Positions 14,612-33,679 of a stretch of DNA of 64,000 nt are shown piece by piece. The notes under the pieces are model-generated. The model did no database searches. It saw only the letters and a list, made by a program, of their open reading frames with translations, and had not been told where the DNA came from. How positions within the stretch are numbered: the first letter of the stretch is position 1; each line of letters begins with the position of its first letter. Location: assembly GCA_937899415.1 (NCBI GenBank), contig CALBPI010000059.1, positions 1 through 64,000 on the forward strand, written 5' to 3'. The position numbers were made by a program, and so were the translations under genes. The stretch comes from an uncultured Gammaproteobacteria bacterium. GTDB taxonomy: Bacteria > Pseudomonadota > Gammaproteobacteria > Steroidobacterales > Woeseiaceae.

Positions 14612-14678
14612 AAAAAAAACGTCGTCGGGCCCCGAAAAAGGCGTGTGCTGAAGGGGTTTTCCCGGCACCCGACGACGT
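14612..14678 (-). terminator. rho-independent terminator with 11-bp stem, long loop and U8 tract
   Basis: The arms 14619-14629 and 14668-14678 are perfectly complementary over 11 bp. On the minus strand the stem runs straight into eight T residues (14619-14612). The 38-nt loop contains a smaller GGG-AAAA-CCC hairpin. It lies downstream of the small membrane-protein gene at 14752-14898 and upstream of glnE, so it probably ends that transcript. Confidence 0.85.
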
Positions 14679-14751
14679 ACAACAGCGGGTATTACTTACC
14701 CTTTATCTTGCTCTTGAACCGATCCCTGGTTCTCGCACCTGGTGACCCGCG

Positions 14752-22679: not shown

Positions 22680-23240
22680 GTGAGCGGTGATTCAGGTCTT
22701 TTGCAGCGTGTTGCAGCCGGCGAACAAGCCGCTGTGGCAGCATGCCTCGACCAGTTCGGCGGCCTCGTGTGGTCGCTCGCACGCAGGCTCTCGCCCAATG
22801 AGGCGGATGCCGAAGACGCCGTGCAGGAAATCTTCGTCGAAATCTGGCGTTTCGCCGATCGCTTCGATCCGTCCAAGGCCAGCGAAACCACGTTTGTGGC
22901 CATGCTCGCCCGACGCCGTCTGATCGACCGGTTGCGCAAGCACGGTCGACAGCCCATCGAAGAAGAATACGAAGACCACCTCGAGCACGCGCCCTCGGCC
23001 GAAGAGTCGGCCGGCCTCGGCAACGATGTCGCGCGCGTGGCGCAAGCCCTCGAGGGCATGAAACCCGAACAACGAGAAGCCATCCGCATGTCGGCGTGGC
23101 TCGGCATGTCGCATAGCGCGATTGCAGAGGAAATGGACCTTCCACTGGGCACAGTGAAGAGTCACATCAGACGCGGACTGATCGCGCTCCGGGAAGATCT
23201 CGGGGCCGGCGAAACCGCGCAGTACCGCGGGACAATGTAA
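22680..23240 (+). CDS. ECF-type RNA polymerase sigma factor
   Basis: A 186-residue group 4 sigma factor. Region 2 covers about residues 20-90 (NEADAEDAVQEIFVEIWRFADRF, ARRRLIDRLRK). Region 4 covers about 125-175 (LEGMKPEQREAIRMSAWLGMSHSAIAEEM, LGTVKSHIRRGL). I chose the GTG at 22680 because an AGGG ribosome-binding sequence precedes it at seven bases and the longer frame from 22545 would include the hairpin at 22589-22617. Its stop overlaps the start of the anti-sigma gene (TAATG). The order fasciclin, sigma, RskA-like anti-sigma is a recurring arrangement. Confidence 0.9.
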   Translation: MSGDSGLLQRVAAGEQAAVAACLDQFGGLVWSLARRLSPNEADAEDAVQEIFVEIWRFADRFDPSKASETTFVAMLARRRLIDRLRKHGRQPIEEEYEDHLEHAPSAEESAGLGNDVARVAQALEGMKPEQREAIRMSAWLGMSHSAIAEEMDLPLGTVKSHIRRGLIALREDLGAGETAQYRGTM

Positions 23241-24058
23241 TGAACACAGATAATCCAACGCTCGATCGCCTGATCGAGCAGGTGACAGAAGATCCGGGTG
23301 GCGGGCTCACGGGCCTCGACGCGGCAAGCCTCGATGCGCTGGCGAAAGACGCCGGTGCGACGTCGGGCAGTACCTTCGCCGAGGAGCTTGAACTGGCGGC
23401 CGCAGCAGCAATGCTGGCCACGGCGCCCGCGCTCAGTAACGAGACCATGCCCGCCGGGCTGCGCGACAAAGTACTCGCACAGGCGGCAGAGTGCGTGCGC
23501 CCCTCGGCGAGCGTTACCGACCTGGCCAGCCGTCGCACCGCCGAACCCGCAGCGGCACCCGCGCGCAACGGCTGGGTTGGTGGGCTGGGTTGGGCCGCGG
23601 CGGCAGCCATGTTCATCGCGCTTATCGTGCAGCCCCGCCCCGAGACGGTCAGCCCCGCAGCGCCCGTCCCCGTGGCCAGCGACGTGCGTGACGCACTGAC
23701 GCAACAGCCCGGCACCATTACCGTGCCCTGGGCGGCATCGGAGTTTGACGCCTACGCGGGCGTTACCGGTGACGTGGTCTGGAACAACGACGAACAACGC
23801 GGTTACCTGCGTCTCGCCGGAATGCCGGCGAACGACCCGTCGGTACGCCAGTACCAGCTCTGGATCGTCGACCCGGACCGTGACGCGGAGCCTGTCGATG
23901 GCGGCGTCTTCGATGTCCTGTCGGCCGACGCCGAGGTATTGATTCCGATCGACGCCAAGCTTCCGGTGCTATCACCAGCGGCGTTCGCGATCACGGCCGA
24001 GCAGCCCGGTGGTGTCGTCGTATCTGAAGGCCCGCTGCTGCTCGTCGCAGCCACCTAG
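23240..24058 (+). CDS. RskA-like anti-sigma factor
   Basis: A 272-residue single-pass membrane protein. The N-terminal cytosolic part (about 1-110) would bind the sigma factor. One transmembrane helix lies around residues 113-132 (GLGWAAAAAMFIALIV). The periplasmic C-terminal domain (about 165-270) has the RskA core, with DVVWNNDEQRGYLRLAGMPAN, YQLWIVDPDRD and AFAITAEQPGGVVVSEGPLLL. It starts in the stop codon of the sigma gene, so the pair is made in fixed ratio. I see no zinc-binding HxxxCxxC motif in the N-terminal part. Release of the sigma factor probably involves regulated proteolysis. Confidence 0.85.
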   Translation: MNTDNPTLDRLIEQVTEDPGGGLTGLDAASLDALAKDAGATSGSTFAEELELAAAAAMLATAPALSNETMPAGLRDKVLAQAAECVRPSASVTDLASRRTAEPAAAPARNGWVGGLGWAAAAAMFIALIVQPRPETVSPAAPVPVASDVRDALTQQPGTITVPWAASEFDAYAGVTGDVVWNNDEQRGYLRLAGMPANDPSVRQYQLWIVDPDRDAEPVDGGVFDVLSADAEVLIPIDAKLPVLSPAAFAITAEQPGGVVVSEGPLLLVAAT

Positions 24059-25245: not shown

Positions 25246-27069
25246 CTAGCGCGGCCGCTCGATGCCCCAACGGCGCATGCGGTCCGCGAGTGTGCTCGGC
25301 CGAACGCCCAGCAACGCCGCGGCACCCCCGTCGCCGCTGACCTTCCAACCCGTGCGCTCGAGCGCTGCAAGCAGGTTGTCGCGCTCGAGCGTGCGCAGCT
25401 CCTGTTCACTGAGTATCTCGTTTTGCGCGGGCTTTGTAACGGGTACCGCAGGCACGGCAGCACCGGGCTCGGCTTCGGCTTCGGGCAATGACAGGTCGAG
25501 TCTCAGGTTCGCGCCCGGCGAGAGGATCACGGCCCGCTCGATCACGTTCTTGAGCTCCCGCACGTTACCCGGCCACGGATAACGCGACAGCGCCTCGGCC
25601 TGCCGTCGCGTGAGCTGCATCGGTTTGCGGCCGAAATCACGCACCGTCTGCTGCAGGAAATGCTGCGCCAGTGCGACCACGTCATCGCCGCGCTCTCGCA
25701 GCGGCGGCACGGCAATCGGAAACACACTGAGCCGGTAGTAGAGATCGCCACGAAAGCGGCTGGCCTCGACCGCTTCGACGAGATCCCGGTTGGTGGCGGC
25801 CACAACGCGCACGTCGACCTTGCGCGTGACGTCTTCGCCGACCCGTTCGAACTCGTTTTCCTGCAGCACCCGCAGCAACTTGCCCTGCAGGTCGAGCGGA
25901 ATCTCACCGATTTCATCAAGGAAGATCGTGCCGCCGTCGGCCAGCTGAAACCTGCCGATGCGATCGCGCACGGCGCCCGTGAACGCGCCCCGAACGTGAC
26001 CGAAAAACTCGCTCTCGAAGAGCTCCTCAGGAATCGACGCACAATTGACCTTCACGAGCGGCCCTGCGGCGCGCTCACTGCGCGCGTGGACCTCGCGCGC
26101 AACAAGCTCCTTGCCCGTGCCCGACTCTCCGGTAATCAACACGCTGGCCGGTGTCCCCGCCACGGCCTCGAGCTGTGCCAGCATTTCGGTGAGCGCCGGG
26201 CTGTCGCCCACGATTCGGCCGAAGCGCAGGGAGACTTTGACCTCCTCGCGCAGGTAATCGCGCTCGAGCTCGAGCTCATGACGCAACCGCGCGTTCTCGG
26301 CCACCGACTCACGCAGCGCGCGCTCGGCCTGGTTGCGTTCCGTGACGTCCTTCGACGCCACGAGCATGCGCAGCACGTCGCCACGCGCATTGCGTTCGGC
26401 CACCGACGACATCATAAGTTCGAGCACACGACCATCGCGCGTCTTCATTTCGCGGTTCTGGTTCTGCTTGCCGCCCAAGGCGATGAGCGATTCGAGCGCG
26501 TGCTGACCTCCGATGCGCTTGCGGAAGGCATCGGTCATGAACTCCAGGATGGAGCGCCCCAGCACCTCCTCGCGCGTGTAGCCAAGCTTGGTCAACCAGC
26601 GGTCGCTGACGTTGGTGATATTGCCGTGCTCATCGACCGTGTGGAGCATCGCCGGGGTGGCGCGGTAGATGGCCTCGAACCGCGCCTCAATATGCGCGAT
26701 GGCCTTCACGTCTTCGTAGACCGCGATCGTGCGCAGGTACTGACCGCTCGCATCGAGCTCGTGCAGCGCACTCGTGCGTAAGGCAACGGCCGTGCCATCG
26801 CTCGCGATGAAGGTCACGGGCACGTCACTCACGGAGCCCGTGCGCCTGAGCTGCGGAATCATCTCCTGCTCGATGCGCCGCACGGAATCGGCGTCGGCGA
26901 TGTCCCCTGGGCGCAGCGTGACCAGCGTGTCCCGGTCGTAACCCAGCCGGTCGATGAGCCGATCACTCTGGTCGAGGAAGTAACCGCGGCCGTCGAGCGC
27001 CGCGACCATGATCGGCAGACGCCGAAAGAGCGTTTGATATCGCTGGTCTGTGTCTGTGGTCATCGCCAT
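25246..27069 (-). CDS. sigma-54-dependent activator with two PAS domains
   Basis: A 607-residue enhancer-binding protein. Two PAS domains occupy about residues 10-130 and 135-255. A coiled linker leads to an AAA+ domain (about 290-520) with Walker A GESGTGKE, the sigma-54 contact loop GAFTGA, Walker [11 protein letters not shown] and [10 protein letters not shown]. The C-terminal Fis-type helix-turn-helix ([23 protein letters not shown]) resembles the FhlA type. The PAS domains suggest sensing of redox state or a small ligand, without any visible heme motif. Three palindromic sites lie in front of the gene, the first only ten bases from its ATG, so autoregulation is likely. The likely target is the divergent gene at 27271, which has a sigma-54 promoter. 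Confidence 0.93.
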
Positions 27070-27078
27070 CCTCAGAAT

Positions 27079-27133
27079 TTACGGAAATCCGTAATTGTTG
27101 TCACGGGAAATCGTAAATTACGGAATTCCGAAA
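27079..27133. promoter_or_regulatory. three palindromic operators (UAS) of the sigma-54 activator
   Basis: Three sites share the pattern TTACG-N6-CGTAA: 27079-27094 (arms of 7 bp, perfect), 27101-27116 (TCACG-N6-CGTAA) and 27118-27133 (TTACG-N6-CGAAA). Centre spacing is 22 and 17 bases. They lie 45-100 bases upstream of the -24 element at 27178, the usual place for enhancer sites, and directly against the start of the activator gene. Confidence 0.7.
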
Positions 27134-27175
27134 GTTTGATTTCTCGTAACCCCCTGATTTTATTGGATCTCAAAG

Positions 27176-27194
27176 TTGGCACACCCCATGCAAT
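27176..27194 (+). promoter_or_regulatory. sigma-54 (-24/-12) promoter
   Basis: TTGGCACA-CCCC-ATGCA fits the consensus YTGGCACG-N4-TTGCW, with the invariant GG (27178-27179) and GC (27190-27191) exactly ten bases apart. The predicted start point is near 27203, giving a leader of roughly 68 nt to the small secreted-protein gene at 27271. Confidence 0.8.
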
Positions 27195-27270
27195 AGAGAT
27201 TAGCGAATGCAGTGCTGCGTTCATGCCGGTGACCTCTCGCCAGCCGCAGTACCGCAAGGCAGGTAGCAAC

Positions 27271-27561
27271 ATGAAAACGAACCGAAAGCACCGCATAGCG
27301 ACTGCCGTACTGGCCGCGCTTGCGACGATCGGCTCGCTGCATGCGCCGTTACACGCCAATGAGACGTCGACGGCCATCGACGAAGTACGCGCCGAGATCG
27401 TGCGTACGGGATACGAGGCCGCCCCCGCCCAGGCGCTGGAACGGTCCGCAGCAGCGGCCCTGACACGAGCCGAGGTGGCGATCCAGGCCGAGCTGGCCCT
27501 CGACCTCGAGCTCAAGCTCGGCGCGCGGGCAGCCCTTGTGGTTGCCAACGCGGATCCTTAA
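27271..27561 (+). CDS. small secreted helical protein under a sigma-54 promoter (96 aa)
   Basis: I do not recognise this protein. A clean signal peptide (residues 1-29, ending PLHAN) precedes a mature part of about 67 residues. The mature part is alanine-rich, almost entirely helical and without cysteine (STAIDEVRAEIVRTGY, LTRAEVAIQAELALDLEL). It is probably periplasmic or secreted. The ATG at 27271 is the only one that gives a signal peptide, and AGGTAG precedes it. The gene has its own sigma-54 promoter and is divergent from the PAS activator. Its stop codon is followed after 27 bases by a highly structured RNA region (27589-27785), so it may also serve as the carrier of that RNA. Confidence 0.7.
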   Translation: MKTNRKHRIATAVLAALATIGSLHAPLHANETSTAIDEVRAEIVRTGYEAAPAQALERSAAAALTRAEVAIQAELALDLELKLGARAALVVANADP

Positions 27562-27588
27562 CTCTGAGTCTCTCCCCGCCCGAATGGC

Positions 27589-27785
27589 ACCGTCGCCTCC
27601 CCCCCCTTTGTTGACGGTTCCCAGCGGGCACGAGGCCCCGTGACGGGCCTCACTCGATCCTGACGGATCGGCGACGCACCCCCCCCTTAGCGTCGCATTC
27701 GTCGGGGCCGGATCCGGTGACCACACCGGTGGCGTTACGCCTGGTCCTTCCCCCCTCCGGACCATCCGGCCCCGACTTCTTTTTT
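27589..27785 (+). ncRNA. candidate structured small RNA with C-rich loops, ending in a four-way junction terminator
   Basis: The + strand folds into consecutive hairpins. H1: 27589-27594 with 27613-27618, 18-nt loop containing CCTCC and eight C. H2: 27632-27638 with 27645-27651. H3: 27655-27660 with 27665-27670. H4: 27671-27677 with 27690-27696, loop with eight C. Then a closed junction: a 13-bp perfect stem (27701-27713 with 27764-27776) encloses three hairpins, 27714-27719/27724-27729, 27731-27734/27738-27741 and 27743-27747/27759-27763 (loop with six C and CCTCC), joined by single T linkers. TTCTTTTTT follows (27777-27785), a rho-independent end. No Rfam family I know matches. C-rich loops that pair with G-rich mRNA sites are known from sRNAs such as sX13 of Xanthomonas. 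Function here is inferred. Confidence 0.65.
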
Positions 27786-27808
27786 GAGCGCACCCACGAC
27801 GCCCACCG

Positions 27809-27837
27809 CTTGAAATCCCGCCCGCAAAGGCCAACAT
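27809..27837 (+). promoter_or_regulatory. possible sigma-32-type promoter for cnoX
   Basis: CTTGAAA (27809-27815) is a perfect RpoH -35 element. After 14 bases, GCCAACAT (27830-27837) is only a partial match to CCCCATNT. The position, just after the terminator of the preceding RNA and 33 bases before the cnoX ATG, is suitable, and ybbN/cnoX is a heat-shock gene in E. coli. Confidence 0.4.
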
Positions 27838-27869
27838 CGTCAGCCTGGGACACGCACTGGGAGCCCGAT

Positions 27870-28739
27870 ATGTTTGAAGCCAACACCGACAGCAACTGGG
27901 TCTTTGACGTCACGGCACGCGATTTCGACGCGCGCGTTGCCAAGGCCGATGTGCCCGTCGTCGTGGACTTCTGGGCCGAGTGGTGTGGTCCCTGCAAGCA
28001 GATCGCGCCCATCCTCGATTCGCTGGCCAGCCAGTACGCGGGCCGCCTGCACGTGGCCAAGGTCAACGTCGACGAGGAAACCACGCTGGCCACGGGGTTT
28101 GGTGTGCGCAGCATCCCCTACCTGGTGGTCTTCAAGGACGGCAAGGTCGTCGAGGAACTCGTCGGTGTGCAGCCCGAAGCGGAGCTCAAACAGATTCTCG
28201 ACAAGCACGTGGAGAAGGCGCCCATGGGGCTGCGCGTGTCCGTGCAGGACGCACTGATGTCCGGTGACTACGACACGGCGCTGGCGGCCCTGGAGCAGGC
28301 GCGTGCCGCCGAACCCGAGAATCCGGGCATCGTTGCTGACATTGCCCGAACCCTGTTTGCCATGGGCCGCGCAGCCGATGCCGATGCTGCGCTTGCGGAT
28401 TTGCCAGACGAGCTCGCGGCCGCGCCCGAGATCGAGCAGCTCAAGGCAGAAATCGCCCTGGCGCGCGCCGCCGATGGGCTGCGCGACAAGGACACGCTCG
28501 AGTCCCTGCTCGCACAAAGCCCGGGTGATGCCGCGCTGACCCACGAACTAGCCCAGGTTTCCGCCGCGACGCGCGACTACGACACGGCGCTCGAGCAGTT
28601 TTTTGGACTCATGCGCGACCACCGCGACTTCGGCGAAGACGCCGGTCGGCGGGGGCTTATCGGGCTATTTGATGTGCTGGGCGCCAATGACGGGCGCGTG
28701 CGCGACTACCGCCGCCGGATGGCGAATCTGCTCAACTGA
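27870..28739 (+). CDS. cnoX: thioredoxin-fold TPR co-chaperone CnoX (YbbN)
   Basis: A 289-residue cytosolic chaperone-like protein that holds oxidised proteins and hands them to GroEL or DnaK. The thioredoxin domain (about 1-115) has the active site WCGPC (C39, C42), unlike E. coli CnoX where the motif is degraded, so this one is probably redox-active. TPR-like helical repeats follow (about 120-289, with DALMSGDYDTALAALEQA and RTLFAMGRAADADAALADL). The ATG at 27870 has GGAG at seven bases. The frame is open upstream to 27717, but that part overlaps the structured RNA and is not protein-like. Confidence 0.92.
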   Translation: MFEANTDSNWVFDVTARDFDARVAKADVPVVVDFWAEWCGPCKQIAPILDSLASQYAGRLHVAKVNVDEETTLATGFGVRSIPYLVVFKDGKVVEELVGVQPEAELKQILDKHVEKAPMGLRVSVQDALMSGDYDTALAALEQARAAEPENPGIVADIARTLFAMGRAADADAALADLPDELAAAPEIEQLKAEIALARAADGLRDKDTLESLLAQSPGDAALTHELAQVSAATRDYDTALEQFFGLMRDHRDFGEDAGRRGLIGLFDVLGANDGRVRDYRRRMANLLN

Positions 28740-30490: not shown

Positions 30491-33400
30491 ATGCGTGTGT
30501 TTAGCGGCCAGCAAAGGACCTGGCTCGCCGGTTTGCTTGTGGGCTTGTGCCTGGGCCCGGGCTCGGCTGCGCCTGCGCGCGCCCAGGAAGCGACAACCGC
30601 CGCGCTTGATATGAACGGGTCGCTGGCCGTCGATCTGTCGCAGCGTGACGCAGCCCGGATCAAGCTACCGGGCGGCATCGGTTACGCCGTTCTGCGTGCC
30701 GATGAGCATCTGTTGTCTGCTTCCCTTTCCGTCCCCGAGGGCGACACCTCCGCGCGCCTGACCAGTCTGGGCATGGCACCCATCATTTGGCTGTTTGAGC
30801 TCGACACTGAAGACAAGATCGTCGAGATAGCGGTACTCGACCGCCACGCCCTCAAGCCCGAGGTTCGGTTGACGCTGCAACCCGCGCCGGAGGCTGCGCT
30901 CGGCGCATGGGCCGCCGAGACCGCCTTGGGACGCCTGCCAGAGAACGCCAGCGACGAGTCGCTGCAAGCTTATGGCGCAAAAGCGGAGCAAGCTGCTGCC
31001 GCGTGGGCGCTGCTCGAGTCCGAGAAGGACGTGATCCGAAATCTGCTTCGTGCGGCGGCACACTTCGAGGACGCCGACGATTATGAACGCGCCCGAGATC
31101 TCGCGAGGGCGGCCGCTGCGCGCGCTGACCGAGCCGGGAACACAGTCGCGCTGGGCCTCGCGAACAACGCCATCGGATTGGCGAGCATCGAGCTCGAAGA
31201 CTTCGACACGGCGCGCGACGTGCTTCCGCTAGCACGCACCCAGCTGAACCCGATCTACGGCAAAGAAGCGGTCAACCCGGCGCAAAGCAACCTGTGCTAT
31301 CTCGCCTTCGAGACGCGCGCCTTTGATGAGGCGGAATCCTGCTACCTGAAGCTCAAAGCCAAGGCGAAGACGGTGGGAAATGGGGGCGCCGCGATTCGTT
31401 ACGACAACCTGCTGGCTGGCGTCTACTGGAACCGCGGCAACACCTCACAGGCGGCGGAAATACTACGCAGCCTTGTCGAGCAACCCGGCATTAGCGTCCG
31501 CCAGCGTGCGCGGCTGCGCAACAACCTGGGAATCTCACTGCGTGCCCTGGGGCAGCCGCAGGACGCCCTGAACTACTACCAGCAGTCGCTGGATGTGGCG
31601 CGCGAGCTGGGTATCGTCGGCCAGATCGAGCAGGTCACCAACAACATGGCCGTCGTGTACGGAGACTTGGGAGCACCGCATCAGGCTGTCGAGCTCCTCG
31701 CGGAAGCGTACGCACTGAGTCAGGGCCGGGGTGACCGCGAAGCCGCTCGCCGGGCACGAAACTACGGCGCCGCCCTGATGAATTCAGGCCGCGCGGCGGA
31801 AGCTAGTGACATTCTCACGGGCGCTATCGATCTCGCCAAGGCACTCGAGGACCAGAGCGGATTGGTCGAGGCCTATCGTCTGGCCGCGTTTGCTGAATTT
31901 AAGCAAGGTCGAGCGGACATGGCGCTCAAGCTCGCGACGGCCGCATCGACTGCCGCCGAGGCACTGGGCGAATCGAGCCGACAGCGGGCACTGGCGTTCG
32001 CCATGCTGGGTAATGCGCAACTGGCGACGGGCGATGCCAAGGCTGCCATACGGAGCCAGCAACAATCTCTCGCGCTTTGGGAAGAGATCGGAAACCCCTA
32101 TGGCAGCGCGCAGGCGCGCATTGCACTGGGATTCGCGACGCGTGCGCAGGGAGATCTGGCCGGAGCGAGTCAGCTCGCGCTCACGGCGATCGATAACATC
32201 GAGGCACTCCGCACGGAAATCGCCAGCCGCGATCTGCGAGCCACCTACCAGTCCTATGTGGGGCAGGCCTATGAGCTGGCTGTTGAGAGCCTCATGGCGC
32301 GCGGTGATATACAGCAGGCACTGGAGATGACCGAGCGATTCCGGGCCAAGACACTCATCGACGCCTTGTCACAAGGCGCGTCACGCAGCGACATCGAGAT
32401 ACCTGCGGACCTCGCCAGGCAACGCGCCGATGCCATTGCGGCCATCAATCGCGCATCGGACGCGAAGCTGCGCGGCAGGAAAGCACCATCCGTCGCGGCG
32501 TTGCTCACGGAACTCGATGTCATCAACGATCGCATCGCCGAGAGCACCGGCATTCAGTCCGACACGCAAGAGCTCACAGACGTCGATGCCGCCGCAATCC
32601 AGGCCCTGCACGCGCCCGGTGACCTCACTCTGGTCTATTTCATGAGCGCCGACGCCGGCTTTCTCTGGATCATCGATGCAGAGAAGATCGACGTCGTGAC
32701 ACTAAACGATGTCGGAGCCATCGACCGCGATGCGCGCGACCTGCACAAGGCGATTTCTCGGCAGGGAAGATACAGTGAGCAAGCCGCCGCGCTGGGACAG
32801 AGTCTCCTGATGCCAATCGCGTCAAGGATTGAGGCTGCGAAGCGCATCGCGATCATTGCCGATGGCGCCCTCCACTACGTGCCATTCGACGTACTGACGC
32901 CTTCCAGAAATAAGCCCCCGGTACTCACTGATAAACCAGTGACCTTCCTGCCGTCTCTGACGGCCGTCGCGCTTACCCGGGAACGCTCACCGTCCAAGGG
33001 TCGCGGCATCGCCGTACTGGCTGACCCGGTATTCAATGTCGACGATGATCGGCTCGCGCCCGAAGACACGACCCGCAGCGGCTACGACCTCAACCGGCTC
33101 CGGATGAGCCGATTCGAGGCTGAGGCCATCGTCGAGCAGGCTGGCGACATTGAGGTTCGCGTTCACCTGGGGCTTGCGGCCACCGCTGATCAGCTTCGCT
33201 CGAGCGACGTTACTGATGCCAACATTTTGCACATTGCCACTCATGGCTTTGCCGACGACGAAATTCCCGCGCGGAGCGGCATCGCCCTGTCCATGGTGGA
33301 CAAGGCGGGGGACTCGGTCACCGGATTCGTTGGACTCAGGGACATCTACAACCTGCGGCTTGATGCCGATCTCGTAGTCCTTTCTGCCTGTGAGACGGCG

Positions 33401-33679
33401 CTTGGCCAGGACCTCGCGGGTGAAGGCTTGCTTGGACTGACCCGGGGCTTCATGAATGCCGGCGCCCGCCGCGTCGTGGCCTCGTTGTGGCAAGTGCAGG
33501 ACCGGGCAACCGCAGAACTCATGGGCGCGTTCTACGCCGAGCTCTTCGAAGGCGCCGCCCCGGCTGAGGCTTTGATGCGGGCGAAGACGCAGCTCAGGGC
33601 CAATCGGCGGTACAAACACCCCTATTACTGGTCCGGATTCACCCTCCAGGGCGACTGGCGCCCCTGGCAGGTGAGATAG
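30491..33679 (+). CDS. exported TPR-CHAT protein (caspase-like protease domain)
   Basis: A 1062-residue protein with a signal peptide (about residues 1-32, ending ARAQE), so the mature form is outside the cytoplasm. TPR repeats fill about residues 190-620 (e.g. NNLGISLRALGQPQDALNYY, NNMAVVYGDLGAPHQAVELL). The C-terminal CHAT domain (about 780-1058) has both catalytic residues of the caspase-like clan: His918 in HIATHGFADD and Cys967 in LSACETALG. The family end motif ARRVVASLWQVQD is present. The cytosolic TPR-CHAT protein of type III-E CRISPR is a protease, and the activity of this exported form is an inference. It heads a same-strand cluster with a small unknown gene, an ECF sigma factor and an anti-sigma-like gene. 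Confidence 0.9.
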   Translation: MRVFSGQQRTWLAGLLVGLCLGPGSAAPARAQEATTAALDMNGSLAVDLSQRDAARIKLPGGIGYAVLRADEHLLSASLSVPEGDTSARLTSLGMAPIIWLFELDTEDKIVEIAVLDRHALKPEVRLTLQPAPEAALGAWAAETALGRLPENASDESLQAYGAKAEQAAAAWALLESEKDVIRNLLRAAAHFEDADDYERARDLARAAAARADRAGNTVALGLANNAIGLASIELEDFDTARDVLPLARTQLNPIYGKEAVNPAQSNLCYLAFETRAFDEAESCYLKLKAKAKTVGNGGAAIRYDNLLAGVYWNRGNTSQAAEILRSLVEQPGISVRQRARLRNNLGISLRALGQPQDALNYYQQSLDVARELGIVGQIEQVTNNMAVVYGDLGAPHQAVELLAEAYALSQGRGDREAARRARNYGAALMNSGRAAEASDILTGAIDLAKALEDQSGLVEAYRLAAFAEFKQGRADMALKLATAASTAAEALGESSRQRALAFAMLGNAQLATGDAKAAIRSQQQSLALWEEIGNPYGSAQARIALGFATRAQGDLAGASQLALTAIDNIEALRTEIASRDLRATYQSYVGQAYELAVESLMARGDIQQALEMTERFRAKTLIDALSQGASRSDIEIPADLARQRADAIAAINRASDAKLRGRKAPSVAALLTELDVINDRIAESTGIQSDTQELTDVDAAAIQALHAPGDLTLVYFMSADAGFLWIIDAEKIDVVTLNDVGAIDRDARDLHKAISRQGRYSEQAAALGQSLLMPIASRIEAAKRIAIIADGALHYVPFDVLTPSRNKPPVLTDKPVTFLPSLTAVALTRERSPSKGRGIAVLADPVFNVDDDRLAPEDTTRSGYDLNRLRMSRFEAEAIVEQAGDIEVRVHLGLAATADQLRSSDVTDANILHIATHGFADDEIPARSGIALSMVDKAGDSVTGFVGLRDIYNLRLDADLVVLSACETALGQDLAGEGLLGLTRGFMNAGARRVVASLWQVQDRATAELMGAFYAELFEGAAPAEALMRAKTQLRANRRYKHPYYWSGFTLQGDWRPWQVR

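Follow-up and report, generated by a model that had tools for sequence, protein, structure and literature searches.

What is encoded by the dense cluster of hairpins that lies behind a small open reading frame (ORF) in this DNA, and what might it do? In a sequence-only reading of the window, by which we mean the whole stretch of 64,000 nt analysed here, positions 27589-27785 were described as at least seven perfect stems, with a 13-bp stem closing over three hairpins, a U-tract, three loops with six to eight C, and CCUCC in two of these. A regulatory RNA or 3´-UTR RNA of no named family was proposed, with C-rich loops that pair with G-rich ribosome-binding sites.

Organization of the locus in the window

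The segment 27560-27800 has a predicted minimum free energy of -113.4 kcal/mol, against -83.8 +/- 5.0 kcal/mol for 200 dinucleotide shuffles (z -5.96), none of which folds as low. The hairpins, the closing stem and the U-tract are all present (Table 1), as are the three C-rich loops (eight C in SL1, eight in SL4 and six in the last hairpin) and the two CCUCC sequences, one at the edge of the SL1 loop and one in the last loop. The outer stem of SL1 begins at 27578, about 11 nt ahead of the start given originally. In 27562-27785, three hairpin loops hold CCCC, compared to a mean of 0.70 in 30 shuffles. C-runs of at least five are no commoner than in shuffles of the same sequence (3 vs 2.6), and its C-runs are thus remarkable for their placement in loops.

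Table 1. Features of the locus, in window coordinates
Feature	Position	Strand	Basis
Divergent activator gene: PAS domain(s), sigma-54 interaction AAA+, AAA lid, Fis-type HTH	25246..27069	-	Pfam
Likely activator-binding sites: palindromes ACGGAAATCCGT and ACGGGAAATCGT and a third, imperfect one, ACGGAATTCCGA	27081..27131		sequence
Predicted sigma-54 (-24/-12) promoter TTGGCACACCCCATGCA	27176..27192	+	regex match
Small ORF, 96 aa, signal-peptide-like N-terminus	27271..27561	+	part of a listed ORF
SL1: long irregular hairpin, 8-C loop (27599-27606), loop UCCCCCCCCUUU	27578..27629	+	fold
SL2: GAGGCCC/GGGCCUC hairpin	27632..27651	+	fold
SL3: CGAUCC/GGAUCG hairpin, counterpart of the relatives' GGNCC hairpin	27655..27670	+	fold; covariance-model alignment
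SL4: GCGACGC/GCGUCGC hairpin, 8-C loop (27679-27686), loop ACCCCCCCCUUA	27671..27696	+	aligns with the relatives' GGCGGCA-CCCCC/CCCCCC-UGCCG hairpin
3´ module: perfect 13-bp stem (27701-27713 with 27764-27776) closing over three hairpins	27701..27776	+	fold
Inner hairpins of the 3´ module, the third with C6 loop UUCCCCCCUCC	27714-27729, 27731-27741, 27743-27763	+	fold
U-tract UUCUUUUUU, intrinsic terminator tail	27777..27785	+	sequence; U-tract also at the end of 34 aligned loci
Thioredoxin-TPR gene, downstream of the RNA	27870-28739	+	Pfam

No family reached the threshold when the whole window and the locus were searched against Rfam 15, which agrees with the original remark that no named family has this architecture, and none was found for 16 other loci of the RNA family described below. 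The hairpin loops of 6C RNA are C-rich, and 6C RNA (RF01066) was the sole weak Rfam match at E <= 5 in 27000-28000 (E 3.2); at 21.3 bits against a gathering score of 47, it was rejected as the identity of the RNA.

The sequence-only reading missed the surroundings, which comprise a divergently encoded PAS/sigma-54 activator, palindromes, a sigma-54 promoter and, ahead of the RNA, the small exported-type ORF. A GAFTGA motif and a Walker A motif are visible in the translation of the activator, and there is no receiver domain among its Pfam hits. The 96-aa product of the small ORF had no match in Pfam or NCBIfam. Downstream, a PGPGW gene (Pfam) lies on the opposite strand. Further away, the window encodes a large TPR protein whose C-terminal part is a CHAT peptidase domain (30491-33679, + strand) and an anti-sigma-K-like protein (23240-24058; Pfam).

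Conservation of the RNA and of its C-rich loops

A BLASTN search of 99 genomes with the RNA returned no homolog but only the RNA itself and two short matches (L002 and L003), of which L002, inside a ribosomal-protein region, was considered a chance match. The small protein gave weak matches in 13 of the 99 genomes (own genome included), one of which, in G033, is the true divergent locus, and the thioredoxin-TPR protein retrieved 80 distant homologs. When further activator sites were sought by pattern in the 99 genomes, the matches did not exceed those of the reversed control, and the locus of the window itself was missed; among the matches listed, the AT-rich palindromic ones lay, by eye, at this locus. 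Near full-length activator orthologs were found in 58 of the 99 genomes (own included), the others with 51-62% identity. The upstream regions of 60 activators from the same order were read, comprising these 58 and two in pieces.

The 60 loci share a plan of palindromes, sigma-54 promoter, usually a small ORF, and then a C-loop RNA. By a fixed regex, 2-4 palindromes occur in each locus, with three in 49 and two in the window, where the third fails the regex; the mean is 2.9 per locus compared to 0.02 in mononucleotide shuffles. The sigma-54 regex matched in 60/60, and conserved promoter positions extend beyond it (T before TGG and A after TGC, each in 59/60). At the sequence level, a -24/-12 promoter with putative activator sites upstream is what a sigma-54 sRNA with its own enhancer-binding protein would have.

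A loop with at least four C is present in 57 of 59 assessable loci. Among these, 53 of the 60 RNAs are complete, and all 53 have at least one C-loop and 41 at least two, whereas shuffles of the same sequences average 0.25; six more were folded separately, four with a C-loop and two, L155 and L156 from one family, without. L116 ends inside the ORF and is hence outside the count. Bases in C-runs of five or more are unpaired in 88% of cases in the predicted fold. In the first C-loop, U directly precedes the C-run in 91% of the 53 RNAs and C precedes that U in 85%; positions further out, for which few rows are available, are variable.

In the commonest type, a hairpin with loop UCUCCCCC is followed by the GGNCC hairpin, the GGCGGCA-CCCCC/CCCCCC-UGCCG hairpin and a terminator stem that encloses an CCGNUCCGUGUCGGANCGG hairpin and a second hairpin. 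Relatives of the common type have two C-loops, and their 3´ module is either a stem that encloses two hairpins or simply a terminator. A structured C-loop RNA is conserved; neither a third C-loop nor a four-way junction was seen in relatives of the common type, and the four-way junction of the window is local.

The covariance-model check that had been proposed for the stems was run on 34 of the 60 loci. Left out were 16 variant or truncated RNAs, three without a recognised SL4 and seven with a short terminator, so that the result describes the commonest type only. Within the 3´ module, 86.3% of cells pair, two-sided changes affect 22 of 38 pairs, compared to a shuffle mean of 11.1, and the covariation score reaches 0.237 against 0.152 in shuffles; none of 500 shuffles reached any of five measures, and pairing fell to 30-49% when partners were slid. 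The covariation is strong, yet these figures give no formal probability because the shuffles ignore relatedness. Without the window, the remaining 33 loci gave a similar picture (87.3% paired, 20/38 pairs changed on both sides, 0/500 shuffles). In the relatives, the closing stem has two-sided changes in 7 of 11 pairs and 99.2% of cells paired; in the small inner helix 6, only 54-58% of cells pair.

A model built from the 33 loci found the window independently, as the best of three hits in 64 kb (37.4 bits, E 4e-8), although the inner hairpins of the window's 3´ module did not align to those of the model. A second hit, at 14612-14712 on the minus strand (22 bits, E 3e-4), was set aside as probably an ordinary strong terminator. 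When applied to 40 further sources, the model scored at least 50 bits in 27; 17 of these (110-128 bits) are at loci that belong neither to the seed nor to its variants. The 13 variants that had been set aside scored 24 bits or less or not at all. We have shown at the level of sequence that the stems are maintained through compensatory change and that C-runs are maintained in hairpin loops, where they recur across genera and families. A chance or degenerate cluster of GC-rich hairpins would fit the GC-rich genome and the number of C-runs, which the composition of the stretch leads one to expect. This explanation has a negligible probability and is refuted by the folding energy, the covariation and the independent model match: the structure in the window is real.

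An earlier model with the window in its seed matched 95 of 396 genomes of the order, at one place each in 94 of the 95. Within the family, 91 of 107 listed members matched. Of the 16 without a match, nine belong to a small-genome genus (g5) that also lacks the activator, and two belong to genus g3, in which the RNA is cut down to its first hairpin; in G003 a contig end cuts the locus (L123), G024 has no close activator ortholog, G045 shows a fragment of one, and the remaining two are G267 and G293. In the g3 loci (L115 and L118), the RNA is the first C-loop hairpin, with no terminator module found and a different gene behind it. Outside the family there were four matches, one strong, in a genome with 6% contamination (G209), and three weak. 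Loci from other families of the order (L104, L120, L126, L139, L146 and L151-L154) have the same promoter and activator layout with differently built RNAs that keep their C-loops; thus, the C-loops outlast the exact fold. At the class level, activators at E <= 1e-140 were found in 4 of 369 genomes: the own genome, one of the same order and two from outside it. Activators outside the order with 46-50% identity (L220 and L221) adjoin unrelated genes, and no C-loop RNA was seen there.

The conservation of the neighbouring genes bears on two alternative functions. First, the RNA could be a cis-acting leader or attenuator of the thioredoxin-TPR gene, since in the window and in L104 the next gene on this strand is thioredoxin-like, and L151-L153 have such a gene further downstream. 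However, only 5 of the 60 fetched stretches (257-1651 nt, some cut by contig ends) yielded a thioredoxin-like gene, compared to 42 with PGPGW on the opposite strand, and the RNA closes with an intrinsic terminator. Because the gene behind the RNA differs among loci and is mostly on the opposite strand, the RNA is not the leader of one gene; this function is largely refuted by the non-conserved downstream gene and is very improbable.

Second, the small exported peptide could be the effector, with the hairpins serving as a strong terminator and stabilising 3´-UTR devoid of trans targets. The small ORF is kept at the same position in most relatives and may be the main product; a loose regex picks out an LDLDIR-like C-terminus in 21 of the 40 long forms of the protein, and the 34 aligned RNAs finish in a terminator. 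However, the ORF is often reduced, to 55 aa or less in 17 of 57 called cases (L104, L120 and L129, in which the automatic call was wrong or the ORF absent, are not counted), and none was recognised in L104. The RNA is present in all assessable loci with a short or absent ORF (L116 was not assessable), which argues that it is more than the tail of a coding region, and C-runs in separate upstream hairpins are needless for a terminator. We consider an RNA without trans targets unlikely; the peptide may also matter.

Comparison with known RNAs

No description of the present locus was found among the open-access papers searched. With its C-rich loops, the RNA belongs to a known kind of sRNA; its candidate input is unusual, and it is better conserved than could be told from the sequence-only reading. 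A parallel for the loops is sX13 of Xanthomonadaceae, which has stable stems with three C-rich apical loops, is always found downstream of polA, is constitutively expressed and represses mRNAs that are enriched in G-rich motifs near their start codons (PMC3771888). The window RNA shares the C-rich apical loops on stable stems, of which it has three. It differs in lying behind a small ORF and a sigma-54 promoter, in its 3´ module and in its neighbours, which are the PAS/sigma-54 activator and the thioredoxin-TPR gene instead of polA. Repression by sX13 of mRNAs with G-rich motifs near the start codon is Hfq-independent; for the window RNA, the analysis covered the enrichment of candidate targets at the sequence level.

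The nearest plan is that of the alphaproteobacterial CcsR and alpha-r14 RNAs, in which a small ORF is combined with hairpin RNAs carrying C-rich loops on differing stems. The motif CCUCCUCCC is present in CcsR. In alpha-r14 RNAs, the motif is identical in each of three hairpins whose stems differ; in Rhodobacter, ccaF1, a small ORF for a DUF1127 protein, is transcribed from an RpoHI/HII promoter together with the CcsR RNAs behind it, and the common transcript has a Rho-independent terminator (PMC10253847, PMC10746234). Unlike in alpha-r14, Cuckoo and CcsR RNAs, the loops described here are C-runs of the UCUCCCCC type and none of those listed holds CCUCCUCCC, the ORF is of an exported type without family match rather than DUF1127, and the promoter is of the sigma-54 type.

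With regard to the input, transcription of the Qrr RNAs depends on sigma-54 polymerase and a specific enhancer-binding protein, LuxO. The window RNA resembles Qrr and GlmY in its position behind a predicted sigma-54 promoter with a candidate activator. GlmY is a sigma-54 sRNA under its own enhancer-binding protein, GlrR/QseF, and QseF is a phosphorylated response regulator (PMC7073468). The RNA described here is unrelated to GlmY, and its divergently encoded candidate regulator has PAS domains, with no receiver domain found among its matches. The present case is a strongly covarying RNA family with no match in Rfam 15, a clear candidate input in the divergently encoded PAS/sigma-54 activator and a testable output in G-rich ribosome sites, notably those of TonB-dependent receptors. 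If true, RNAs with C-rich loops arose on different backbones in several bacterial groups and, here, would control receptor-rich envelopes.

Candidate targets and a proposed mechanism

The pattern GGGGGAGA-N(2-11)-ATG, in which GGGGGAGA is the complement of the conserved loop, gave 63 rows in 10 RNA-bearing genomes compared to 11 for the reversed control, an excess that is due in part to ribosome sites being purine-rich anyway. After two G006 sites and one duplicate row were left out, 60 of the 63 were fetched, and 32 of these head ORFs of at least 100 aa. Eleven of the 32, from 6 of the 10 genomes, encode a TonB Plug domain; the same genomes have 384 Plug matches in all, by estimate about 1% of genes. 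The genome of the window, whose loops are longer C-runs, contributes none of the 11.

A second comparison addressed receptor genes directly, with p-values that are uncorrected, start positions that are heuristic, and a pattern and test chosen after the loops had been seen. It covered 86 receptors and 48 short-chain dehydrogenases (4 of 90 and 2 of 50 loci were too short), with callable starts in 84 and 43, respectively. The control sets, from which short or duplicate loci were dropped, were 24 of 30 loci of outer-membrane efflux proteins (OEP) and 48 of 50 receptors from ten genomes of the order that lack any close ortholog of the activator. GGGGG at -20..-3 occurs in 21/84 receptors compared to 1/43 dehydrogenases (p 0.0006), 1/24 OEP (p 0.018) and 5/48 control receptors (p 0.033). 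For GGGG at -20..-3, the figures are 34/84 compared to 6/43 (p 0.0016), 4/24 (p 0.025) and 10/48 (p 0.016). Complementarity of at least 6 nt is found in 21/84 receptors compared to 0/43 dehydrogenases (p 6e-5), 3/24 OEP (p 0.15) and 8/48 control receptors (p 0.19). The originally proposed pairing with G-rich ribosome-binding sites is plausible, with some support on the target side from the pattern counts and receptor comparisons, but the outcome is modest against the closest controls, and the G-rich ribosome sites of receptors may have another cause. The computational evidence, of moderate strength, points to TonB-dependent receptor genes as the leading candidate targets.

We consider it probable that the hairpins are the 3´ part of a sigma-54-controlled transcript, or an sRNA released from it, whose C-loops would pair with G-rich Shine-Dalgarno regions, with receptor mRNAs as leading candidates. 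As judged from sequence and conservation, the divergent PAS/AAA+ activator would bind the palindromes and turn on sigma-54 polymerase at the promoter. The resulting transcript would comprise the ORF for a small exported or membrane peptide followed by a compact RNA of about 210 nt ending in an intrinsic terminator, and the RNA would either persist in the transcript or be released. Base-pairing of its loops with G-rich Shine-Dalgarno regions would then most likely keep a set of mRNAs from being translated, such that synthesis of TonB-dependent receptors, the leading candidates, would be repressed. The peptide may have a function of its own, in which case the transcript would be dual-function. 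One alternative is a sponge, in which the C-rich loops would capture a protein or another G-rich RNA instead of pairing with the ribosome sites of mRNAs. Similar loops repeated on differing hairpins fit a sponge as well as an antisense RNA. We nevertheless regard a sponge as improbable, as this analysis identified no partner and the G-rich ribosome sites of the receptors provide a counterpart on the mRNA side.

A more specific version of the favoured antisense mechanism is possible, and we put it forward tentatively. The locus would represent an RNA family not described before and a regulatory module of one bacterial order, in which the PAS/sigma-54 activator drives a dual-function transcript of exported peptide and C-loop RNA, TonB-dependent receptors are globally tuned through masking of their G-rich ribosome sites, and the peptide carries TonB-box-like motifs in some lineages. 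Mature N-termini resembling a TonB box were observed in some small ORFs (L102, L107, L126, L139, L146 and L151-L153), e.g., DEIVVT in L102 and EIVVTAPRP in L151-L153. A loose regex found such motifs in 11 of 40 long proteins, compared to a shuffle mean of 2.2 and a highest value of 9; because the regex was made after seeing the data, these motifs are not counted as evidence. In four loci with an ORF of about 30 aa (L112, L114, L130 and L131), the DNA behind the stop codon resembles, by eye, the lost C-terminal coding part (CTTGAT...CATCGA), and may be a relic or a second RNA element.
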